DNA of 51,605 nt from Sulfurimonas sp. (GCA_016744115.1 JADGEZ010000008.1:1-51605); one strand, 5' to 3'. Counted from the stretch's first letter, positions 8,956 through 23,942 are shown. The notes: a model not told the origin generated them from the letters alone. Translations and numbers: made by a program.

Positions 8956-10329
8956 TTATGATGATTGTTGTGCATTTGCCATTTGTGCAAACATTGATGA
9001 AGATGACTTAAATCTATTGATAATCAAATCATAGGCAGCAAACTGTTTTTTTAATATCTCATACTTAGCTTCTAATCTTTCTGTAGCAGATGATTTTCTA
9101 TCTTCTAAAGTCGATATATTTTGAGAAAGAGCTTCTTTTACTTGATCTAACATCTTATTTGTTTTAGTAAAAGATTCTATTTTTGTGGACATGTCTGAAA
9201 ATGCACCCTTTAACTCAACTGTACTGCCATCAGCTTTTGTAAAGTCACCACCAGAAAAAAATGCTTGTAAATTTCTAGGATTCTCATCCATAGTTTTTTC
9301 TATAAGAGTTTTATCTAAGGTCATCTTACCATCTTTATCAACATTAAACCCATAATCAACCATTATACCAACACCACCACCAACCGATTGGATCATATCT
9401 TGAATCGCTTTTTTCATATTCTTGATACTAGAGTCTGATGAAAAAATTCCTCTATCGGCTGAATCCACACTCGCTTTAGTCATTTTATCCAGTTCTGTAA
9501 TTGCCGAGTTATATTTTTCTACAAAACTATCGAATTTATCTAAAATACTTGTTCTGTCTTGAGAAATACTGACATTAGATACACCTGTTTGTTTAAGTGT
9601 AATACTAAGACCTGTAATTAAATCATCGACTTTATTATCTGAGCGATTTATCACTTGTCCATTAAATGTAAAAACTGCATCAGTTCCAGATTGGATAGCA
9701 TCGTTCTCAAAATTTGCAGTTAATTTAGTATCTAATCCAACCCCACTTACGGAGATGTTAGTATCTGTTTGATCCCCTGTTTCATTTGAACTTAAAAACA
9801 AGCGATATTCACCAGTATTTACTTGAACTATTGTTGCATTTACTAAATCACCAGCTTCTTTATTGATTAAATTTTTCATATCAACTAATGAGGCACCTGC
9901 GTCATAGTCAATACTGATTGCCGTCCCCGTTCCAACTTGTATATCAAAACTTCCTGCTGAGGCATCAATTGCATCCGTTTTTGCACTAAAAGCACCTGAT
10001 TGCTCAATTTGTTTTGTTGCTAAAGAAGTAACATTAAGAGTGAAATCTTGTATATCAGTCTTGGCAATTGCTGAAACCTCAACTGATGAGCCAGAAGACA
10101 CCTCAGCTTTTCTCTCATCCCAAAGCGAAGCAACTCTTATAGAATTAATACTATCAACAAAATTTGTCATACTGGCATCTATTAGTTTTAATGCATCTTG
10201 TTTATCTTTTTCATTTGCTAAATTTAAGTCAATCGGTCGGATTCTTTGTGCTTCATCTGTTTTTTTCAACTGGTCGAGTATATCTTGTGTTAAAATTCCT
10301 GATCCCGCACCTAATGAACTAATTCCCAT
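8956..10329 (-). CDS. fliD: Flagellar filament cap protein FliD (HAP2)
   Basis: Caps the growing filament and folds incoming flagellin. The N-terminus (MGISSLGAGSGILTQDILDQLK) and the Thr-rich central part (DFTLNVTSLATKQIEQSGAF) are typical. So is the helical C-terminus (EDRKSSATERLEAKYEILKKQFAAYDLIINRF), given here only as a landmark from about residue 405 to 440. Length is 457 aa. There is no signal peptide, as expected for a type III export substrate. It is followed by fliS. The usual flaG is absent directly upstream; an EAL/HDOD gene lies there instead. A sigma-28-like promoter is proposed in the upstream gap. Confidence 0.93.
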   Translation of the reverse strand: MGISSLGAGSGILTQDILDQLKKTDEAQRIRPIDLNLANEKDKQDALKLIDASMTNFVDSINSIRVASLWDERKAEVSSGSSVEVSAIAKTDIQDFTLNVTSLATKQIEQSGAFSAKTDAIDASAGSFDIQVGTGTAISIDYDAGASLVDMKNLINKEAGDLVNATIVQVNTGEYRLFLSSNETGDQTDTNISVSGVGLDTKLTANFENDAIQSGTDAVFTFNGQVINRSDNKVDDLITGLSITLKQTGVSNVSISQDRTSILDKFDSFVEKYNSAITELDKMTKASVDSADRGIFSSDSSIKNMKKAIQDMIQSVGGGVGIMVDYGFNVDKDGKMTLDKTLIEKTMDENPRNLQAFFSGGDFTKADGSTVELKGAFSDMSTKIESFTKTNKMLDQVKEALSQNISTLEDRKSSATERLEAKYEILKKQFAAYDLIINRFKSSSSMFAQMANAQQSS

Positions 10330-10361
10330 AACAAATCCTTTTGTTTAAATAATTACTAATT

Positions 10362-10387
10362 AAATCGACAAAACATCATTTATCTTA
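10362..10387 (-). promoter_or_regulatory. Possible sigma-28 (FliA) promoter of fliD
   Basis: Read on the minus strand, CGATTT (10362-10367) matches the Campylobacterota sigma-28 -10 element. A TAAG/TTAA-like -35 lies 16 nt upstream (10384-10387). It stands about 30 nt before the fliD start. The -35 is imperfect, so this is tentative. Confidence 0.35.
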
Positions 10388-10415
10388 ATAGGACATAAAT
10401 AACTGAAGCATCGCT

Positions 10416-11663
10416 TCACGAATTTTTCATTGATTCTTCAAATTCATTTACATTTTCAATTGCTGCAAGAATGACTTCTTGAATTGATTCTTCTAATACT
10501 CTGTATCTTTTAGAAAAGTCACTAATTGCTGAGATATTAAAATCTTCAATATCTCGTACAGCTTTATGTAACATTCCTAGCGTTCCTTCATCTTTAAGCA
10601 AGGCTTTTTTTGCAATATCTGAAATATTAATGTGTTCCAAAATTTCAGCTAAATCTACTTTAAAAATTGTATCAATCAAAGAAAGAGCACCCACTAAATA
10701 AGCTTCCCCTAGTGCATTACTTTTTACATCTGGTTTAAGTACTTTGAGGAGGTTTTGCATGAGTTCTGTTCTATTTTTAACCATGAGCATCAAAGGAGAC
10801 ACTTTTACATTTTTTGTAAGGGATTTTGAATAAATCATAAGCATCAACCATTGAGATAAAGGCTTTCTTCCAACTAAAATTAAAACATGATGGATAGATG
10901 ATATTTTGTTACGAAAATGAAAATTTGCAGAATTTAAAAATTGTAAAAGTTGAAGTGATAAGGCATGGTTATTTTCAAACTCTGTTGTAATCTCATCTAT
11001 ATTTGTATCTGTTATCAGCATATTATACAATTTTAAAACATTAAATTGAGAAGGATCAAACTTTTCATTTTTTAATATTTTTGGTTTTGAGAAACAATAA
11101 CCTTGAAATAAATCACATTCTAAATTTTTTGCGATTTGATAGACAGATAAATCTTCTATCTTTGTAGCTACAACTTTTATTTCCTTATCTTGAAGTTCAA
11201 CGATCAAATCTTTATCTTCTAAACCCATATCTACATATACATTAATTTTAAAATAAGAGAGTTTATTTAAAATTTCTTGATATTTCTTAATGTTATCACT
11301 ATTTAAGTCTATATCATGGATTGCTAAAGTGAATTTTTGTTCATATAATTGTTCTATTCTTTCTAAAATTCTTTCTGTAATATCTATATTTTCGGATAAT
11401 GAAAGAATAAAAAAGTCTGTAGGTATTGTTTTAATTAAATCACTCATCAAAAATTTTTCATCTACCTTTATAAAAGCCTTATGTTCACTCAAAAATTCTT
11501 TTGTTCCAAATTTATTTAACACTGAATTTATTACAGACGCACTTTGATACCTGTCATTGGATACAGCCACTTGTTTGTTAGCATCAAGATACATAATTTC
11601 ATAAGCTTCTAAATTTTCATCAATGTTTACGATAGGTTGACGCGCTAGATATATACTGCTCAT
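10416..11663 (-). CDS. EAL-like/HDOD signalling protein
   Basis: A cytoplasmic regulator of 415 aa. Residues 1 to about 190 are an EAL-like domain that begins YLARQPIVN, but the EAL catalytic triplet reads as YEIMYLD here, so it is probably inactive toward c-di-GMP. An HDOD domain follows (about 205-400: LLQFLNSANFHFRNKISSIHHVLILVG is its landmark, split across residues 235-262). HDOD proteins of this layout act as regulators rather than enzymes. It lies 86 nt upstream of fliD on the same strand, and flagellar or c-di-GMP-linked control is plausible. The domain call is good; the role is not known. Confidence 0.82.
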   Translation of the reverse strand: MSSIYLARQPIVNIDENLEAYEIMYLDANKQVAVSNDRYQSASVINSVLNKFGTKEFLSEHKAFIKVDEKFLMSDLIKTIPTDFFILSLSENIDITERILERIEQLYEQKFTLAIHDIDLNSDNIKKYQEILNKLSYFKINVYVDMGLEDKDLIVELQDKEIKVVATKIEDLSVYQIAKNLECDLFQGYCFSKPKILKNEKFDPSQFNVLKLYNMLITDTNIDEITTEFENNHALSLQLLQFLNSANFHFRNKISSIHHVLILVGRKPLSQWLMLMIYSKSLTKNVKVSPLMLMVKNRTELMQNLLKVLKPDVKSNALGEAYLVGALSLIDTIFKVDLAEILEHINISDIAKKALLKDEGTLGMLHKAVRDIEDFNISAISDFSKRYRVLEESIQEVILAAIENVNEFEESMKNS

Positions 11664-17878: not shown

Positions 17879-18253
17879 TTATTTTGCAATAATATTGAAC
17901 TCAATATATTTAATATCTTCTTTAAATTCTTCACCATATTCTTGCATAGCTCCATCTTCAATATCATGAATCCAATTTACAATGATTTTATAACTTTCTT
18001 GTTCCTCAAGTAAATCAAAAATATCCAAAAGAACTTTAGAACTGCTACTATTAAAATAGACCAAGTCAAATATTAAAATAATTTCTACGTCACTAGCCCC
18101 TTTTAAGTATTCAACAATCCACTCAAATATTGGAAGATAAAATCGAGTACAGTTTTCAGGATATGATTCCCCTGCAACTTTTAAAATGTTTGTATCTGGG
18201 TTAAAGTCAATTGCTGGTGAACTTTTTGTTTTTTCTACTATTAATCTTTGCAT
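17879..18253 (-). CDS. siaC: SiaC-family (DUF1987) regulatory phosphoprotein
   Basis: A 124-aa cytoplasmic protein with the DUF1987 pattern: an early SPAIDFNP, the middle GESYPENCTRFYLPIFEWI, and the hallmark LVYFNSSSSKVLLDIF at residues 64-79. In Pseudomonas SiaC the corresponding YFNTSSSK carries the phosphorylated threonine (from memory); here the matching residue is Ser69. Family members act as anti-sigma-antagonist-like switches: the unphosphorylated form binds and activates a partner, SiaB-type kinase phosphorylates it, and SiaA-type PP2C restores it. It is the last gene of the six-gene operon, 15 nt after the SiaB-like gene. The likely partner here is the stalk of the HD-GYP protein, which is inference. 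Confidence 0.85.
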   Translation of the reverse strand: MQRLIVEKTKSSPAIDFNPDTNILKVAGESYPENCTRFYLPIFEWIVEYLKGASDVEIILIFDLVYFNSSSSKVLLDIFDLLEEQESYKIIVNWIHDIEDGAMQEYGEEFKEDIKYIEFNIIAK

Positions 18254-18268
18254 TTTGTTTTCCTTATT

Positions 18269-18808
18269 TTATATCACTACTTCTATCGAAAAAAATGAAT
18301 ACTCTTCATCAATTTTTTCAAAACTATACTTTAATGGTTGTGAAGATTTTCTTGCCATCTCAATAAAACCAATTCCAGCACCCTTACTCTCTTCATTGTC
18401 ATTTTGTTTACGCTTTTGTTTATATAACTCTTTTAATTCATCTTTATCCATTAAGACAAGGTCGTTAAGATTTGATTTAAGTATAGCCCCTTTTGATTTA
18501 CTTATTTTATTACCTCCTACGATAAAGTGTTTACCATCATTATTACCAATGACTATTATTCCTTTTCCAAAGTCAAATGATTTTTCACATCTCTCTTGAG
18601 AGTAATGAATAACATTTTGCACCTGTTCAATAAAAATAGAAAAAACTTTCATGGTTGTGGTAGTGTTCACTTCATCTATTTGCATTTGATTTTTAAGTGT
18701 TATACCTATACCCTCCACAATATCATGAGAAACTGGTCCACAAAAGGTAAAGATTATTCCCTCTTTATCAAGTGCCTCTTTATAACTATAAATACTATTT
18801 TTAAGCAT
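18269..18808 (-). CDS. siaB: SiaB-family protein kinase (GHKL-like, DUF6272)
   Basis: A 179-aa soluble protein with a Bergerat-type ATP fold in reduced form. The N-box is visible as FIEQVQNVIHYS (about 59-70, with Glu61 and Asn65). The G-box lies in KGAGIGFIEMAR near 142-153. There is no membrane segment and no phosphoacceptor histidine region, so it resembles anti-sigma-factor-type Ser/Thr kinases. Predicted to phosphorylate the SiaC-like protein encoded 15 nt downstream. It starts 9 nt after the HD-GYP gene. Position and size match SiaB of the Pseudomonas siaABCD operon. Confidence 0.8.
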   Translation of the reverse strand: MLKNSIYSYKEALDKEGIIFTFCGPVSHDIVEGIGITLKNQMQIDEVNTTTTMKVFSIFIEQVQNVIHYSQERCEKSFDFGKGIIVIGNNDGKHFIVGGNKISKSKGAILKSNLNDLVLMDKDELKELYKQKRKQNDNEESKGAGIGFIEMARKSSQPLKYSFEKIDEEYSFFSIEVVI

Positions 18809-18817
18809 CCTTTCTCC

Positions 18818-19645
18818 TCACTTAATTCTATTTTCTAATTTATTTTTCACATTAATAATCTCATCCAAATTAGAAAAAAATATATCTACCAACTTAGGCT
18901 CAAAATGCTTCCCTGATTCTTTTTTAATATAATTAAAAATCGAATCATTATCCCACGCTTTCTTATAGCATCTATCACTTCCTAAAGCATCAAATACATC
19001 TACTAGGGCAATAATGCGTCCATATATATGAATATTATCTCCTGACAAACCCCTTGGATATCCTGAACCATCCCAATTTTCATGATGTTCATGCGCAATG
19101 ATGGAAGCTGCTACTAAAAGAGGTCTATCTGAATCATTAATCATCTCATAGCCTAATTTCGCATGAGTTTTCATAATCTCAAACTCCTCAAAGCTTAGCT
19201 TGCTTGGTTTATTCAAAATTGCATCAGGAATTGCAATTTTACCAATATCATGCATGGGAGCTGCATGAAAAAGGAGATCAACCTCTCTTTCATTAAGCCC
19301 ATAATTTTTTCCAAGAATCTTTGCGTACCAAGAAACTCTTTGAACATGTAAGCCTGTTTCATTGCTTCTAAATTCAGCTATCGTGCCAATAGTAGAGAGA
19401 ACTTCTTTTTGTGTCCTCTCAACTTCATCATTAAGTTCTCTAATTTCATTTAATTTAATTTTAAGTCCATCATAATCTTTACGCTGAATTTTATCACCTA
19501 TTGTAAGAATTTTATTTAGCTTTTTATTGGCTTTTTTAAACTCTTTGAAAAGTTCCTTAATATCATCTTTTCTTGTATTTAAATCAATATCACTGTTAAT
19601 GATTTGTTCCATTTTTTTAATAATACTGTTATTATTTCCTGTCAT
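18818..19645 (-). CDS. HD-GYP c-di-GMP phosphodiesterase with N-terminal helical stalk
   Basis: Residues about 25-90 form a charged helical, coiled-coil stalk ([20 protein letters not shown]) that resembles the stalk of SiaD-type cyclases, to which SiaC binds. Residues about 95-260 form a complete HD-GYP domain: [10 protein letters not shown] with His131-Asp132 type metal ligands, [16 protein letters not shown], and [17 protein letters not shown]. Both the HD and GYP signatures are intact, so hydrolysis of c-di-GMP is expected. No receiver domain or membrane segment is present. It overlaps the phosphatase gene by 14 nt. Replacement of a GGDEF output by HD-GYP within a Sia set is the unusual point. 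Control of the stalk by SiaC is inference. Confidence 0.87.
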
Positions 19646-21164
19646 AAACTTCTCCTAAGTCTAAATAAACACCAAGCAATGTTCCATCATCTTTAGTTTC
19701 ACTCCTAGCCTTATAATTGCTAAATGCTTTTTGAAATAATTTAAGTTGCTCATAAAAAGGTTTTTTAAATACATCGCTTACTAATCTAACCAAGCGTTTT
19801 TTACCATAAAGAAAACCTTTCTCTCCTCCTGTTTGATCTAAGTAGCCATCAGTAGTAAGATACACACGAGTAGGCTTAAATAAATCTACTTTATGTTCTG
19901 TGTATTTATAGTCAATATCAGTTTTTTTATATCCAACTGACTGCTTATCCCCTTTTATGATTTGAAGCACATCATCTTGTACGACAAATAAAGGAGTTTG
20001 TGAGCCAGAAAATTTTAAAACTTTTTCTCTTTTATTTATATAAACAATCCCACCATCAAAGCCTGCATTTGATATAGAGTTTTTATCGTTTTGGTCTAGG
20101 AGTTTTTTCATATTTTTATTAAAATAATTCATTATTTTTGCTGGATTAATATCATAATCACTTTTAATCAACTTAGCTACTATCTCTTTTTCTATTGCTT
20201 TAACTAGCATAGTTACAAAAGCACCTGGAACACCATGACCAGTACAGTCAATTACCATAAGCAAAGCTTCATCTTCATGGCGTAATGTTTGAAAAAAGTA
20301 AATATCCCCACCAACAGTATCTTTTGGTTCCCATAAAACAAAAGAATCATTAAAAAATTTATCAATATTTTCTTTTTTAGGCAAAATAGCCTTTTGAATA
20401 TCTGCGGAATATTCTATAGAATCACGCGTTTGTTGATGAATTTCTTCTATCTTTTCATTTTGTGTTTGAACCTTGGCTAGCATGTTTGAAAAACCATCAT
20501 AAAGATATTTAAATTCATCATCATTTTCACACTCTACACGCATATCGTAGTGATTACTCCTAGCCACTAAATCCATAATATTTATGAGATTAAAAATTGG
20601 TCTAGTAAAAATTTTGTGTATTTTAAATGCTAAAAATACCAGTATAAATAGAGTCAAAATACTCACTACTGACATCATTTGCAACTCATCAATAACTTTT
20701 GACTTTAATTGTTCTGTATCTGAAATAATTTTCAAATGTCCTATAATATTTTCATTTAAAACAATTGGTACAGTTACTCCTATCTGATTCCAATCAAAAT
20801 GCTTGGTAGCAGTATCTAAAGGATTTAATAGCTTTTTTTCAATCTTAAAACTATTTTTATCAGAGACATAAGAGGCAAACAAATCATTTTGTAAATCATA
20901 AACTAATGCTACTTGAATATTTTTATTAATTGAAAGAGGTTGCAGTATATTTTTTGCACTTATTTCATCATCAAATGTTAAAGAAGCTGTAATATTTTCA
21001 CTACTAATGCGAGCTAATTGTGTTAAATTTGTTATAGAGTCTTGTTTTTGAAAACTCAGTATAGAAAAAGAAAATGAAATCATCGAAATAGACAAGGCTA
21101 TCATCGCGGACAAACTCAATAAAAATATTAATTTAGTGCGAATTGAAAAATTATTAAAATTCAT
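19632..21164 (-). CDS. siaA: Membrane PP2C (SpoIIE-type) phosphatase with CHASE8-like sensor and HAMP domain (SiaA-like)
   Basis: Domain order in 510 aa: TM1 about 12-36; periplasmic domain about 37-158 with the CHASE8-like pattern [20 protein letters not shown] and [17 protein letters not shown]2 about 165-182; HAMP about 183-235; linker; PP2C/SpoIIE domain about 265-505. Metal-binding aspartates are visible in VGGDIYF (Asp287), [13 protein letters not shown] (Asp306), LTTDGYLDQ (Asp439) and TKDDGTLLG (492/493). Predicted to dephosphorylate the SiaC-like protein in response to an envelope signal. CHASE8-HAMP is the sensor layout of the cyclase YfiN/TpbB, whose partner is YfiR, and a YfiR homologue is encoded two genes upstream. 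Overlaps the TonB receptor gene by 11 nt. Confidence 0.85.
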
Positions 21165-23406
21165 ACGAAGCCCTTACATAATAATAAGCACCATTATATC
21201 CAAAAGGTGAGTATTGAGAATATGCTAATCTGTCATTTGAACGATTTTTTTCTGGATAAGTATCGAATATATTTGTCCCACCTATTGCTAAGCGAGTTTG
21301 ATTAGATATTTTATAAGAAACATCTAAATCTGTACTCCATTGTGGTGAAAAAGTTTGTAGTTGAGAATTATATACATCGCTAAATTCTCCATACCTAGAT
21401 ATATTTAAAGCAACATTTACTGGGTCTAATTCATAGTTAAAATATAATTTAATATAATCTTTTGGTTGAGTGTTTTCTATTCTGTTTATCTCTTTCATCG
21501 AATCACTAATCCCTGTGGTATCATTAAAACTTAAAATCTTCGTTTTTGAATAAGAATAAGAAGCATTAATATTCAAGTTTGCATTATTTTTCAGTTTTGT
21601 TTCATACTTTATAGCTACATCTATACCTTGAGTTTTTGTATTAACTGCATTGGTAAAAAACCTTGCTATAGATTTTTCGCCATAGGGTATATTTCTTGTA
21701 ATCATTATTCTATCATCTATTTTTGTGTAGAAATAATCTGCACTCAGAGATAAATTATTTTGTATTTGGTAAACAAATCCTGAAGTGAAATGCAGAGACT
21801 CTTCTGCTTTTAACTCTTTTGCTCCTAAAGAAATTGCGAGTGGGTCACTTGTTCTTAGCGTATCTGTTTTACTTAAGTTATTTTGCGTGCCACTTATCCC
21901 TGTAGTACTAAACTGCGATTGAGATAAAGAGGGAGCATGAAAACCAGTACTTCCAGAAGCTCTTAAAAGTAATGAGTCTTTCACTCTATAAGAGAGAGAA
22001 AGCTTATAATCATTTGTTGCTCCAAAATCTGAATAATTCTCAAACCTTGTTGCTAATTTAAAACTAAAATCATTTATCTTTTTATCTATTTGCAAATAAG
22101 CTGCTATATTATGACGGTAGGAATCAACAACATTTTTGGGCTGGAAACCAGGAAAACCTTGAGCTCCAGCATTATTGCTATAGCCTCCATTTTTATAAGA
22201 AGCCTCATCTCCTGCTTTTATTGCAAAATTTTCATATCTAAACTCTAATCCCCCTGCAATATTAAAACTGCTAAATTTATGTCTCATATCAAGATTAGTA
22301 GTTGCTTGTAAAAAGCTAAGTCCACCGCTATCAAAAGATGTGGGAGAATTGAGCCCCATTGAGTTATTTAAAGAATCACGAACATAATAATGAAAAGAGT
22401 TATATCCTATCTTTTGGCTCAAATCCCAGCTAGTATTATTAGTAATTTCTCCATTAATACCGAGGGTTAAAGATGTATCATAAATTTTTGCATTTATCTT
22501 TGGTAAAAAACCATTTGGATAAATCTCAACATTATTCCTATTACTATTTGCGTCTCTATAAAATGCGTTATTTATACTATCTCTATAGTTAAAAAGAGCA
22601 TCCCCATAAATATTAATATCATTTTCTTGTGGACTTAAAATATTTAATGCTAAGGTAAAATTTTGAGATTTTGGCTGACCTAGAGGAGTATTTTCCCCTT
22701 CCCTTTCATGGTTGGTTCTTTGTCTGTCTTGTATAGATGCGGCAATGTTTACATATCCATCATAGTCTAGTGCAGTATAGTAAAATATATCCCCTTGGAT
22801 TGTATTACCACCACCATCAAGATTTGTACCGATTTTTGAGCTTACACTATTTTGGTGTCCATTTGCCTTAAGGATAATATTTATAACTCCAGCAATAGCA
22901 TCAGAACCATACTGTGCAGCAGCTCCATCACTAAGAATCTCTATGTGTTCTATCATAATCACAGGAATTATATTTAAATCAACGCCTGAACTTCCTTTAC
23001 CGATAGTTCCATAGAGATGAACGAGAGCAGAGCTATGTAGTCGTTTTCCATTTACGAGTACAAGTACTTGATCTGGATTCAAGCCTCTAAGAGTTCCAAC
23101 ACTTACATGATCAGATCCATCATTAATAGCTGGTGTTTGAGAATTAAATCCTGCAACAAAGTACTGTAATACCTTCGTTAATCTTTTTAAACCTGAGTTT
23201 TTAATCTGTTTGTTTGTAATAACCTTAATAGGAACATTTGAGTATAAAAAATCTCTACTTCCACTACGAGAACCGATATTAGCCTTAAGTTCAGTCTCTA
23301 CAGCAAAGAGTTCATCTAAGCTTTTTTCATAGAGTTCATTTGAAAATAAAGCTTGAGTAACAAGAAGAGAAAAAAGTTTTAGTTTTATGAATCTATAGTG
23401 CATCAA
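21154..23406 (-). CDS. TonB-dependent outer-membrane receptor in signalling operon
   Basis: A 750-aa protein with an N-terminal signal region ending near LFSNE. A plug domain at about residues 50-165 includes GTLRGLNPDQVLVLVNGKR and GSDAIAGVINII. A 22-strand-type barrel follows, ending in the aromatic YVRASYEF. It closely resembles general siderophore, cobalamin or organic-ligand receptors; the ligand cannot be read. It overlaps yfiR-like (4 nt) and the phosphatase gene (11 nt), so it is tightly tied to the signalling genes rather than to transport genes. No TonB, ExbB or ABC partner is near. It may act as a signal-capturing receptor for the YfiR/phosphatase pair, which is inference. The N-terminal SLDELFAVET may serve as a TonB-box region. 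Confidence 0.87.
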   Translation of the reverse strand: MMHYRFIKLKLFSLLVTQALFSNELYEKSLDELFAVETELKANIGSRSGSRDFLYSNVPIKVITNKQIKNSGLKRLTKVLQYFVAGFNSQTPAINDGSDHVSVGTLRGLNPDQVLVLVNGKRLHSSALVHLYGTIGKGSSGVDLNIIPVIMIEHIEILSDGAAAQYGSDAIAGVINIILKANGHQNSVSSKIGTNLDGGGNTIQGDIFYYTALDYDGYVNIAASIQDRQRTNHEREGENTPLGQPKSQNFTLALNILSPQENDINIYGDALFNYRDSINNAFYRDANSNRNNVEIYPNGFLPKINAKIYDTSLTLGINGEITNNTSWDLSQKIGYNSFHYYVRDSLNNSMGLNSPTSFDSGGLSFLQATTNLDMRHKFSSFNIAGGLEFRYENFAIKAGDEASYKNGGYSNNAGAQGFPGFQPKNVVDSYRHNIAAYLQIDKKINDFSFKLATRFENYSDFGATNDYKLSLSYRVKDSLLLRASGSTGFHAPSLSQSQFSTTGISGTQNNLSKTDTLRTSDPLAISLGAKELKAEESLHFTSGFVYQIQNNLSLSADYFYTKIDDRIMITRNIPYGEKSIARFFTNAVNTKTQGIDVAIKYETKLKNNANLNINASYSYSKTKILSFNDTTGISDSMKEINRIENTQPKDYIKLYFNYELDPVNVALNISRYGEFSDVYNSQLQTFSPQWSTDLDVSYKISNQTRLAIGGTNIFDTYPEKNRSNDRLAYSQYSPFGYNGAYYYVRASYEF

Positions 23407-23921
23407 TCATTTCCTTTAACAATCTTTGCGATTGAGAGTAGCCTTGAGCTTATTTTAAAATTTGGAGTATCTGTTACTTCATTATTTATTTTTAAACGAA
23501 TTTTTTGCGAAACGAAATAGAGTTGTATAACTCCACCTCTTTGTGCAAAACCTTTGTTTTCACTAATAGTAACTATAGAATTTTTTTGTGTATGTTTTAT
23601 AATAGCTTCTTGGTCTTTTTGAGAGTGTTTAGTTACATAAAGAATATGTGTAAATTCTATCTCTTGTATATTTTCTACATAGTTTATCTTAACAGGTTTG
23701 TTATGAATCTTTTTATCTTTATACAATATATCTAAATGAGAGTCAAAAGCATGGTTTTGAAACACTGTTATGATAAATTCTTTAGAAGTATCTTCTTTTT
23801 TCCATTTAATAAAATGCGAAACTTTTCCAATAACAACCGCCTTTAATTCATCCTCAGAACTTGCACCATACAAATTGGATAAAATAAACGATATTATAAA
23901 AATAAACTTAATAATTTGCAA
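23403..23921 (-). CDS. YfiR-family (DUF4154) periplasmic regulator
   Basis: A 172-aa exported protein. The signal peptide is about residues 1-19 (FIISFILSNLYGA). The mature part carries the YfiR pattern: AVVIGKVSHFIKWK near the start, TISENKGFAQRGGVIQLYF at about 118-136, then KINNEVTD and the closing FKISSRLLSIAKIV. In Pseudomonas, YfiR binds the periplasmic CHASE8 domain of the cyclase YfiN and holds it off. Here the CHASE8-bearing protein of the operon is a PP2C phosphatase. No cysteine is present, unlike the disulfide-bonded Pseudomonas protein. The start is TTG with a weak RBS and no alternative in frame. It is the first gene of the set, 21 nt after bcp. Confidence 0.83.
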   Translation of the reverse strand: MQIIKFIFIISFILSNLYGASSEDELKAVVIGKVSHFIKWKKEDTSKEFIITVFQNHAFDSHLDILYKDKKIHNKPVKINYVENIQEIEFTHILYVTKHSQKDQEAIIKHTQKNSIVTISENKGFAQRGGVIQLYFVSQKIRLKINNEVTDTPNFKISSRLLSIAKIVKGND

Positions 23922-23942
23922 TCTTTAAAAGCCTAATTTATC

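Follow-up and report, generated by a model that had tools for sequence, protein, structure and literature searches.

A six-gene operon of Sulfurimonas sp. in which a Sia-type phosphorylation switch may control an HD-GYP protein

What does a Sia switch control when no diguanylate cyclase is encoded beside it? In Pseudomonas, SiaA and SiaB set the phosphorylation state of SiaC, and phosphorylation blocks SiaC docking (PMC7278518, PMC8457831); the only proven target of SiaC is a cyclase (PMC8457831). The question is raised by a 51,605-nucleotide (nt) stretch of Sulfurimonas sp. DNA (GCA_016744115.1, JADGEZ010000008.1:1-51605; hereafter, the window), in which open reading frame (ORF) analysis revealed an operon of six ORFs, all on the minus strand, running from 23921 to 17879. 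In this study, we report that the operon probably constitutes a pathway from the envelope to the cytoplasm, in which a Ser/Thr switch of the Sia type would control a cyclic diguanylate (c-di-GMP) phosphodiesterase instead of a cyclase.

In order of transcription, the genes encode a YfiR-like periplasmic protein (172 residues, 23403..23921), a TonB-dependent receptor (750 residues, 21154..23406), a SiaA-like phosphatase composed of CHASE8, a membrane region and a PP2C (SpoIIE) domain (510 residues, 19632..21164), an HD-GYP protein (275 residues, 18818..19645), a SiaB-family kinase (179 residues, 18269..18808) and a SiaC-family phosphoprotein (124 residues, 17879..18253). Successive genes overlap by 4, 11 and 14 nt, and are then separated by gaps of 9 and 15 nt. 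The TTG start assigned to the yfiR-like gene is uncertain. The receptor ORF has two alternative starts, TTG at 23406 and ATG at 23403, and with the latter it would overlap yfiR by 1 nt (TGATG).

All assigned Pfam domains scored over their curated cut-offs: DUF4154 in the YfiR-like protein (113 bits, cut-off 24.9; E 1.4e-32), Plug (6e-20) and TonB barrel (4e-34) in the receptor, CHASE8 (56 bits) and SpoIIE (57 bits) in the phosphatase, HD_5 (109 bits) in the HD-GYP protein, DUF6272 (PF19788; 150 bits, cut-off 26.6) in the kinase, and SiaC (PF09345; 132 bits, cut-off 24.5; E 1.3e-38) in the last protein. The kinase also belongs to the SiaB kinase family of NCBIfam (NF038262; 194 bits, cut-off 85). 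No HAMP domain was reported by Pfam between CHASE8 and PP2C, where we infer a HAMP-like linker. The closest Protein Data Bank (PDB) matches of the phosphatase, the kinase and the SiaC-like protein were the Pseudomonas SiaA PP2C domain (6k4e, 1e-43), SiaB (6kko_A, 4e-27) and SiaC (6kko_C, 5e-15), respectively. With respect to the active-site residues of SiaA (PMC7647112), D457, D474, G477, D600 and G601 correspond to D287, D306, G309, D439 and G440 in the 6k4e alignment, and the D653 region aligns with a DD pair. The catalytic Glu of SiaB is conserved as E61, and the Pseudomonas SiaC phosphosite T68 aligns with Ser69 (codon at 18047..18049), the predicted phosphorylation site. The strict NCBIfam equivalog cut-offs were not reached by SiaA (237 against 700), SiaB (140 against 225), SiaC (96.5 against 150) or the sequestration-type YfiR (38.5 against 85 bits), so these four proteins are relatives of the known ones and not the same orthologues.

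A preliminary description of the locus, made from the DNA alone, had proposed these six genes with their order and spacings, as well as a YfiR/CHASE8 front end joined to a Sia switch, and both proposals agree with the ORF coordinates and the Pfam domains. Its domain calls stood for YfiR, the TonB plug, CHASE8, SpoIIE, HD-GYP, SiaB and SiaC, leaving HAMP as the one that Pfam did not report, and the PP2C and SiaC proteins fall inside the Sia families. Its statement that the operon lacks a GGDEF protein was equally correct, none being found among the Pfam and NCBIfam domain calls for the six genes.

The candidate target lies within the operon itself. In the crystal structure of the Pseudomonas complex, S82 and Q86 of the SiaD stalk contact T68 of SiaC (PMC8457831). 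A profile of 36 columns (A3), built from HD-GYP and other proteins near siaC with a putative docking (dock) motif and containing no Pseudomonas row, was compared with 177,635 PDB sequences. SiaD (7e6g) was the top match (E 0.031; runner-up, E 0.49), and the matched chain residues 69-99 span the crystallographic contacts S82 and Q86; a weak second match on SiaD covered part of its other SiaC site. A profile restricted to the stalks of HD-GYP proteins (A2) had ranked SiaD eighth (E 1.9), and given that its coiled-coil tail attracted unrelated coiled coils, the shorter mixed profile was adopted. When searched in the window's genome, A3 matched the HD-GYP protein with an E-value of 3.4e-10 at residues 36-59 (19469..19540, minus strand), which lie on a helix (residues 22-90; mean predicted local distance difference test score, pLDDT, 89) placed ahead of the HD-GYP domain in a single-chain AlphaFold2 model. 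Because its N-terminal helix bears the SiaC-binding type of stalk motif of SiaD, the HD-GYP protein is a probable SiaC target.

Only two proteins of this genome carry the motif, and both are HD-GYP proteins beside siaBC. The second belongs to another Sia locus (L038:4250-12334, genome G000 C34), again without GGDEF, in which two large PP2C proteins (1124 and 890 residues) flank SiaB, SiaC and the dock-bearing HD-GYP protein.

Could SiaC nevertheless act on a cyclase, as it does in Pseudomonas? The classic pathway might operate in trans, with SiaC activating an unlinked diguanylate cyclase and the HD-GYP protein acting alone to balance it. The proven target would lead one to expect this, and the genome has 19 GGDEF matches outside the operon by domain search; however, the A3 search found the motif on none of them at E<=0.01, and searches by domain and profile yielded no GGDEF partner for SiaC in the remainder of the genome. 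Furthermore, dock-bearing HD-GYP proteins adjoin siaC in dozens of loci: a dock protein was present within 3 kb in 73 of 96 distinct siaC loci, being an HD-GYP protein in 46 and a histidine kinase in 24, in addition to hybrids, class III cyclases, GGDEF and PP2C proteins. We therefore consider a cyclase in trans unlikely.

It must also be asked whether the HD-GYP protein is a working enzyme. In alignment with PmGH, whose metal ligands and activity residue D183 have been described (PMC4159591), all eight metal ligands are kept (E96, H100, H132, D133, H161, H187, H188 and D216); E96-T97-G98 forms the E-T-G signature, which places the protein in the trinuclear E/D-T-G subgroup, and the equivalents of PmGH K225, Y285, R314 and K317 are retained. 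Hydrolysis of c-di-GMP by this protein is likely as judged from these residues. That it serves instead as a SiaC-controlled scaffold, or as a binder of another nucleotide, would fit the replacement of D183, needed for full activity in PmGH, by Ser in this HD-GYP family, but is quite improbable in view of the ligands, signature and further residues just listed.

The distribution of the motif bears on its role. Regular-expression and profile searches located it near the N-terminus (first ~110 residues) of output proteins adjoining siaC, on HD-GYP, GGDEF, PAS-GGDEF, histidine kinase, hybrid kinase, HATPase-CheX, class III cyclase and PP2C proteins, so that five or more unrelated catalytic folds share one core. 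Among signal-output enzymes, 87 of 110 carried it at distances of up to 3 kb from siaC, versus 5 of 41 farther off. Among Campylobacterota it occurred in 16 of the 20 genomes with a SiaC over the cut-off and in 1 of the 377 without (E<=1e-5), the positive side of this comparison being partly by construction and the absence elsewhere not. In Gammaproteobacteria, which were not selected for the profile, it was found in 7/9 siaC genomes and 2/275 others (Fisher test, 5e-11), and the matches inspected stand beside siaC, mostly on GGDEF proteins of the SiaD type. These data have to be weighed against the view that the shared stretch is a coiled-coil trait of stalks whose genes accompany siaC, and plays no part in SiaC binding. 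The stalks are indeed low-complexity and helical, and weak coiled-coil matches do appear. Such a trait would hardly place the same core on unrelated folds, put the top PDB match exactly on the SiaC site of SiaD, or be nearly absent from genomes without siaC, and we assign this view a low probability.

Several dock-related loci merit mention in their own right. In genome G210, a 77-residue ORF consisting of barely more than the dock helix (L050:9401-9634) lies between dock-PAS-GGDEF and dock-histidine-kinase genes beside siaC, and is a possible SiaC decoy or buffer. Class III nucleotide cyclases with the helix were seen near siaC in six loci, mostly of Desulfobacterota (L108, L109, L115, L117, L141 and L140), one of them fused to GGDEF, and two soluble PP2C proteins bear the helix themselves (L089:4054-4929 and L210:6850-7698). 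A gammaproteobacterial genome in which no SiaC was found (L220, G687) has two dock-bearing histidine kinases, which may reflect either a missing contig or a SiaC-independent use of the helix. A divergent PP2C-SiaB-SiaC group of the same family (L041, L042 and L043) has no dock protein nearby.

With respect to the recurrence of the set, the identical six-gene order was found in four other genomes of the genus (G478, G420, G455 and G488; loci L189, L190, L191 and L194), with protein identities of 43-73% to the window operon; in L189 the YfiR is truncated by the contig end. The association is not due to chance, because the same order recurs at these levels of identity. At least four more loci hold the six parts in different arrangements: L199/L069 (Sulfurimonas sp. 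metagenome-assembled genome, MAG), L079 (gammaproteobacterial MAG), L107 (Candidatus Thiovulum imperiosus MAG) and L106. No GGDEF gene was present in the same-order or reordered sets. The preliminary description had left to a survey of relatives both the co-occurrence of the six genes and the chance of a constant GGDEF partner; the former held and no such partner accompanies the sets. SiaC is patchy in the genus (18 of 135 genomes). The SiaB of L199 is 25-30% identical to the window type versus 70-80% to the SiaB of loci with other sensors, and given that it thus belongs to a different SiaBC/HD-GYP lineage, a Sia back end was acquired by this front end on two or more occasions. In L194 the HD-GYP gene is in two ORFs (9873-10717, G488), owing to either a frameshift error or decay.

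The surroundings of the operon are also informative. In four relatives without it, bcp and rpsB are direct neighbours; in the window and in G488 the operon separates these two genes, and in G420 and G455 it lies at other places, and on this account the six genes behave as a unit. The bcp-yfiR spacer has just 21 nt (window positions 23922-23942), in which no terminator-like site was seen, and the promoter scan was at chance level (40 found versus 40.2 expected). For these reasons, transcription from bcp may run on into the operon.

The front end was traced by searching DUF4154 in 397 Campylobacterota genomes and inspecting 27 neighbourhoods. YfiR-TonB pairs were often found with CHASE8-GGDEF (in nine loci, including a split one), with a CHASE8-histidine kinase or with a YfiR-GGDEF fusion. 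The YfiR-TonB-CHASE8 combination is thus a common Campylobacterota module, mostly with a GGDEF or kinase output. Its rare form is a PP2C output, seen in the window type, in L150, with no SiaC nearby, and in L051 (L051:8422-12494, G210), where a single protein joins YfiR directly to a SiaA-type PP2C, its gene being preceded by that of a TonB receptor and followed by siaC. Although YfiR-TonB pairs occur with other outputs, it is very unlikely that these two genes form a unit for transport or stress that just happens to adjoin a Sia-HD-GYP unit, since CHASE8 is fused to the SiaA-type PP2C, the genes overlap, the L051 fusion brings YfiR and PP2C together with TonB and siaC, and several gene orders hold all six parts.

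Taken together, an envelope-to-cytoplasm pathway ending in the predicted phosphodiesterase may be outlined as follows. In Pseudomonas, YfiB sequesters YfiR from YfiN (PMC4655355). None of the six operon proteins matched an OmpA domain in Pfam, as a YfiB-like lipoprotein would, and the TonB-dependent receptor might take the place of YfiB, ligand binding or movement altering the grip of YfiR on the periplasmic CHASE8 domain. As the domain order suggests, CHASE8 would gate the attached PP2C phosphatase, and by homology with the Pseudomonas enzymes PP2C would remove, and SiaB add, a phosphate on Ser69 of SiaC. Unphosphorylated SiaC is predicted to bind residues 36-59 in the helical stalk of the dimeric HD-GYP protein, just as it docks on the stalk of SiaD, because the motif matches the SiaC-binding site of the latter. 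Docking would most likely switch the HD-GYP protein on, so that the signal would lower c-di-GMP; this sign is a guess, slightly better than even.

Some points weigh against this pathway. The docking of SiaC on the HD-GYP protein is a prediction, the E-value of A3 in the PDB is modest taken alone, and Gly takes the place of SiaD Ser82 in the window motif. Since A3 was derived from neighbours of siaC, the proximity to siaC is partly by construction, the gammaproteobacterial and PDB tests being exempt. At the position of PmGH D183, a residue whose mutation reduces activity, the window protein has Ser94, and nearly all relatives likewise have Ser, so that catalytic activity is not assured. Finally, the window YfiR has no cysteine, lacking the four of Pseudomonas YfiR, and the contact between it and the TonB receptor is purely inferred.

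Compared with known systems, the operon resembles SiaABCD of Pseudomonas aeruginosa in its SiaA-type PP2C, SiaB-type kinase, SiaC-type switch protein and predicted target with a SiaC-binding helical stalk. It differs in that the target would be HD-GYP and not the GGDEF protein SiaD, the phosphosite is Ser and not Thr, the sensor is CHASE8 accompanied by YfiR and TonB genes, and the scores lie under the Sia equivalog cut-offs. With YfiBNR (and HmsCDE) it shares a periplasmic protein of the YfiR family and a membrane protein with a CHASE8 domain, but here CHASE8 is fused to PP2C and not to GGDEF as in YfiN, the outer-membrane part is a TonB receptor and not YfiB, and the cysteines of YfiR are missing. 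The YfiR-TonB receptor-CHASE8 arrangement is also that of the TOL_0243/TOL_0244/YfiR-associated histidine kinase set of NCBIfam (NF053591, NF053590 and NF053592), all three models of which match with scores below cut-off; its known output is, however, a histidine kinase.

The preliminary description knew of no account of this combination. The full six-gene set was indeed not found in the literature searched, mostly open-access, and neither were a SiaC-controlled HD-GYP protein, a portable dock helix or a YfiR/TonB input; related Campylobacterota clusters have, however, been noted in general terms. These PP2C/STYK/STAS/c-di-GMP enzyme clusters were presented as potential pathways, in which a PP2C with a periplasmic sensor and a STAS kinase would govern, by way of a STAS protein, an enzyme of c-di-GMP turnover; the passage concerned mentions neither a docking site nor a YfiR/TonB input, nor HD-GYP as the target (PMC9239204; mBio 2022). 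What the preliminary description had missed was the wide occurrence of the front end in Campylobacterota, the second Sia-HD-GYP locus of the genome and the part of the HD-GYP protein as a predicted SiaC target and not an extra.

In a broader sense, and with a little less confidence than for the operon itself, we find it fairly likely that SiaC serves generally as a phospho-adaptor, through which one Ser/Thr phosphatase/kinase switch would be coupled, in several phyla, to c-di-GMP phosphodiesterases, cyclases, histidine kinases, class III nucleotide cyclases and PP2C enzymes. The coupling element would be a portable helix at the N-terminus of these enzymes, [K/R]-I-x3-S-D-x2-Q, which also exists by itself as the 77-residue protein that might serve as a decoy; the window operon would be the fullest version, from outer-membrane receptor to phosphodiesterase. 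If so, the Sia switch, which has been known only for activating a cyclase, would be a general means of bringing many bacterial signalling enzymes under the control of reversible Ser/Thr phosphorylation, a sequence rule would predict the targets of SiaC, and an outer-membrane TonB receptor would be given a route to lower c-di-GMP.

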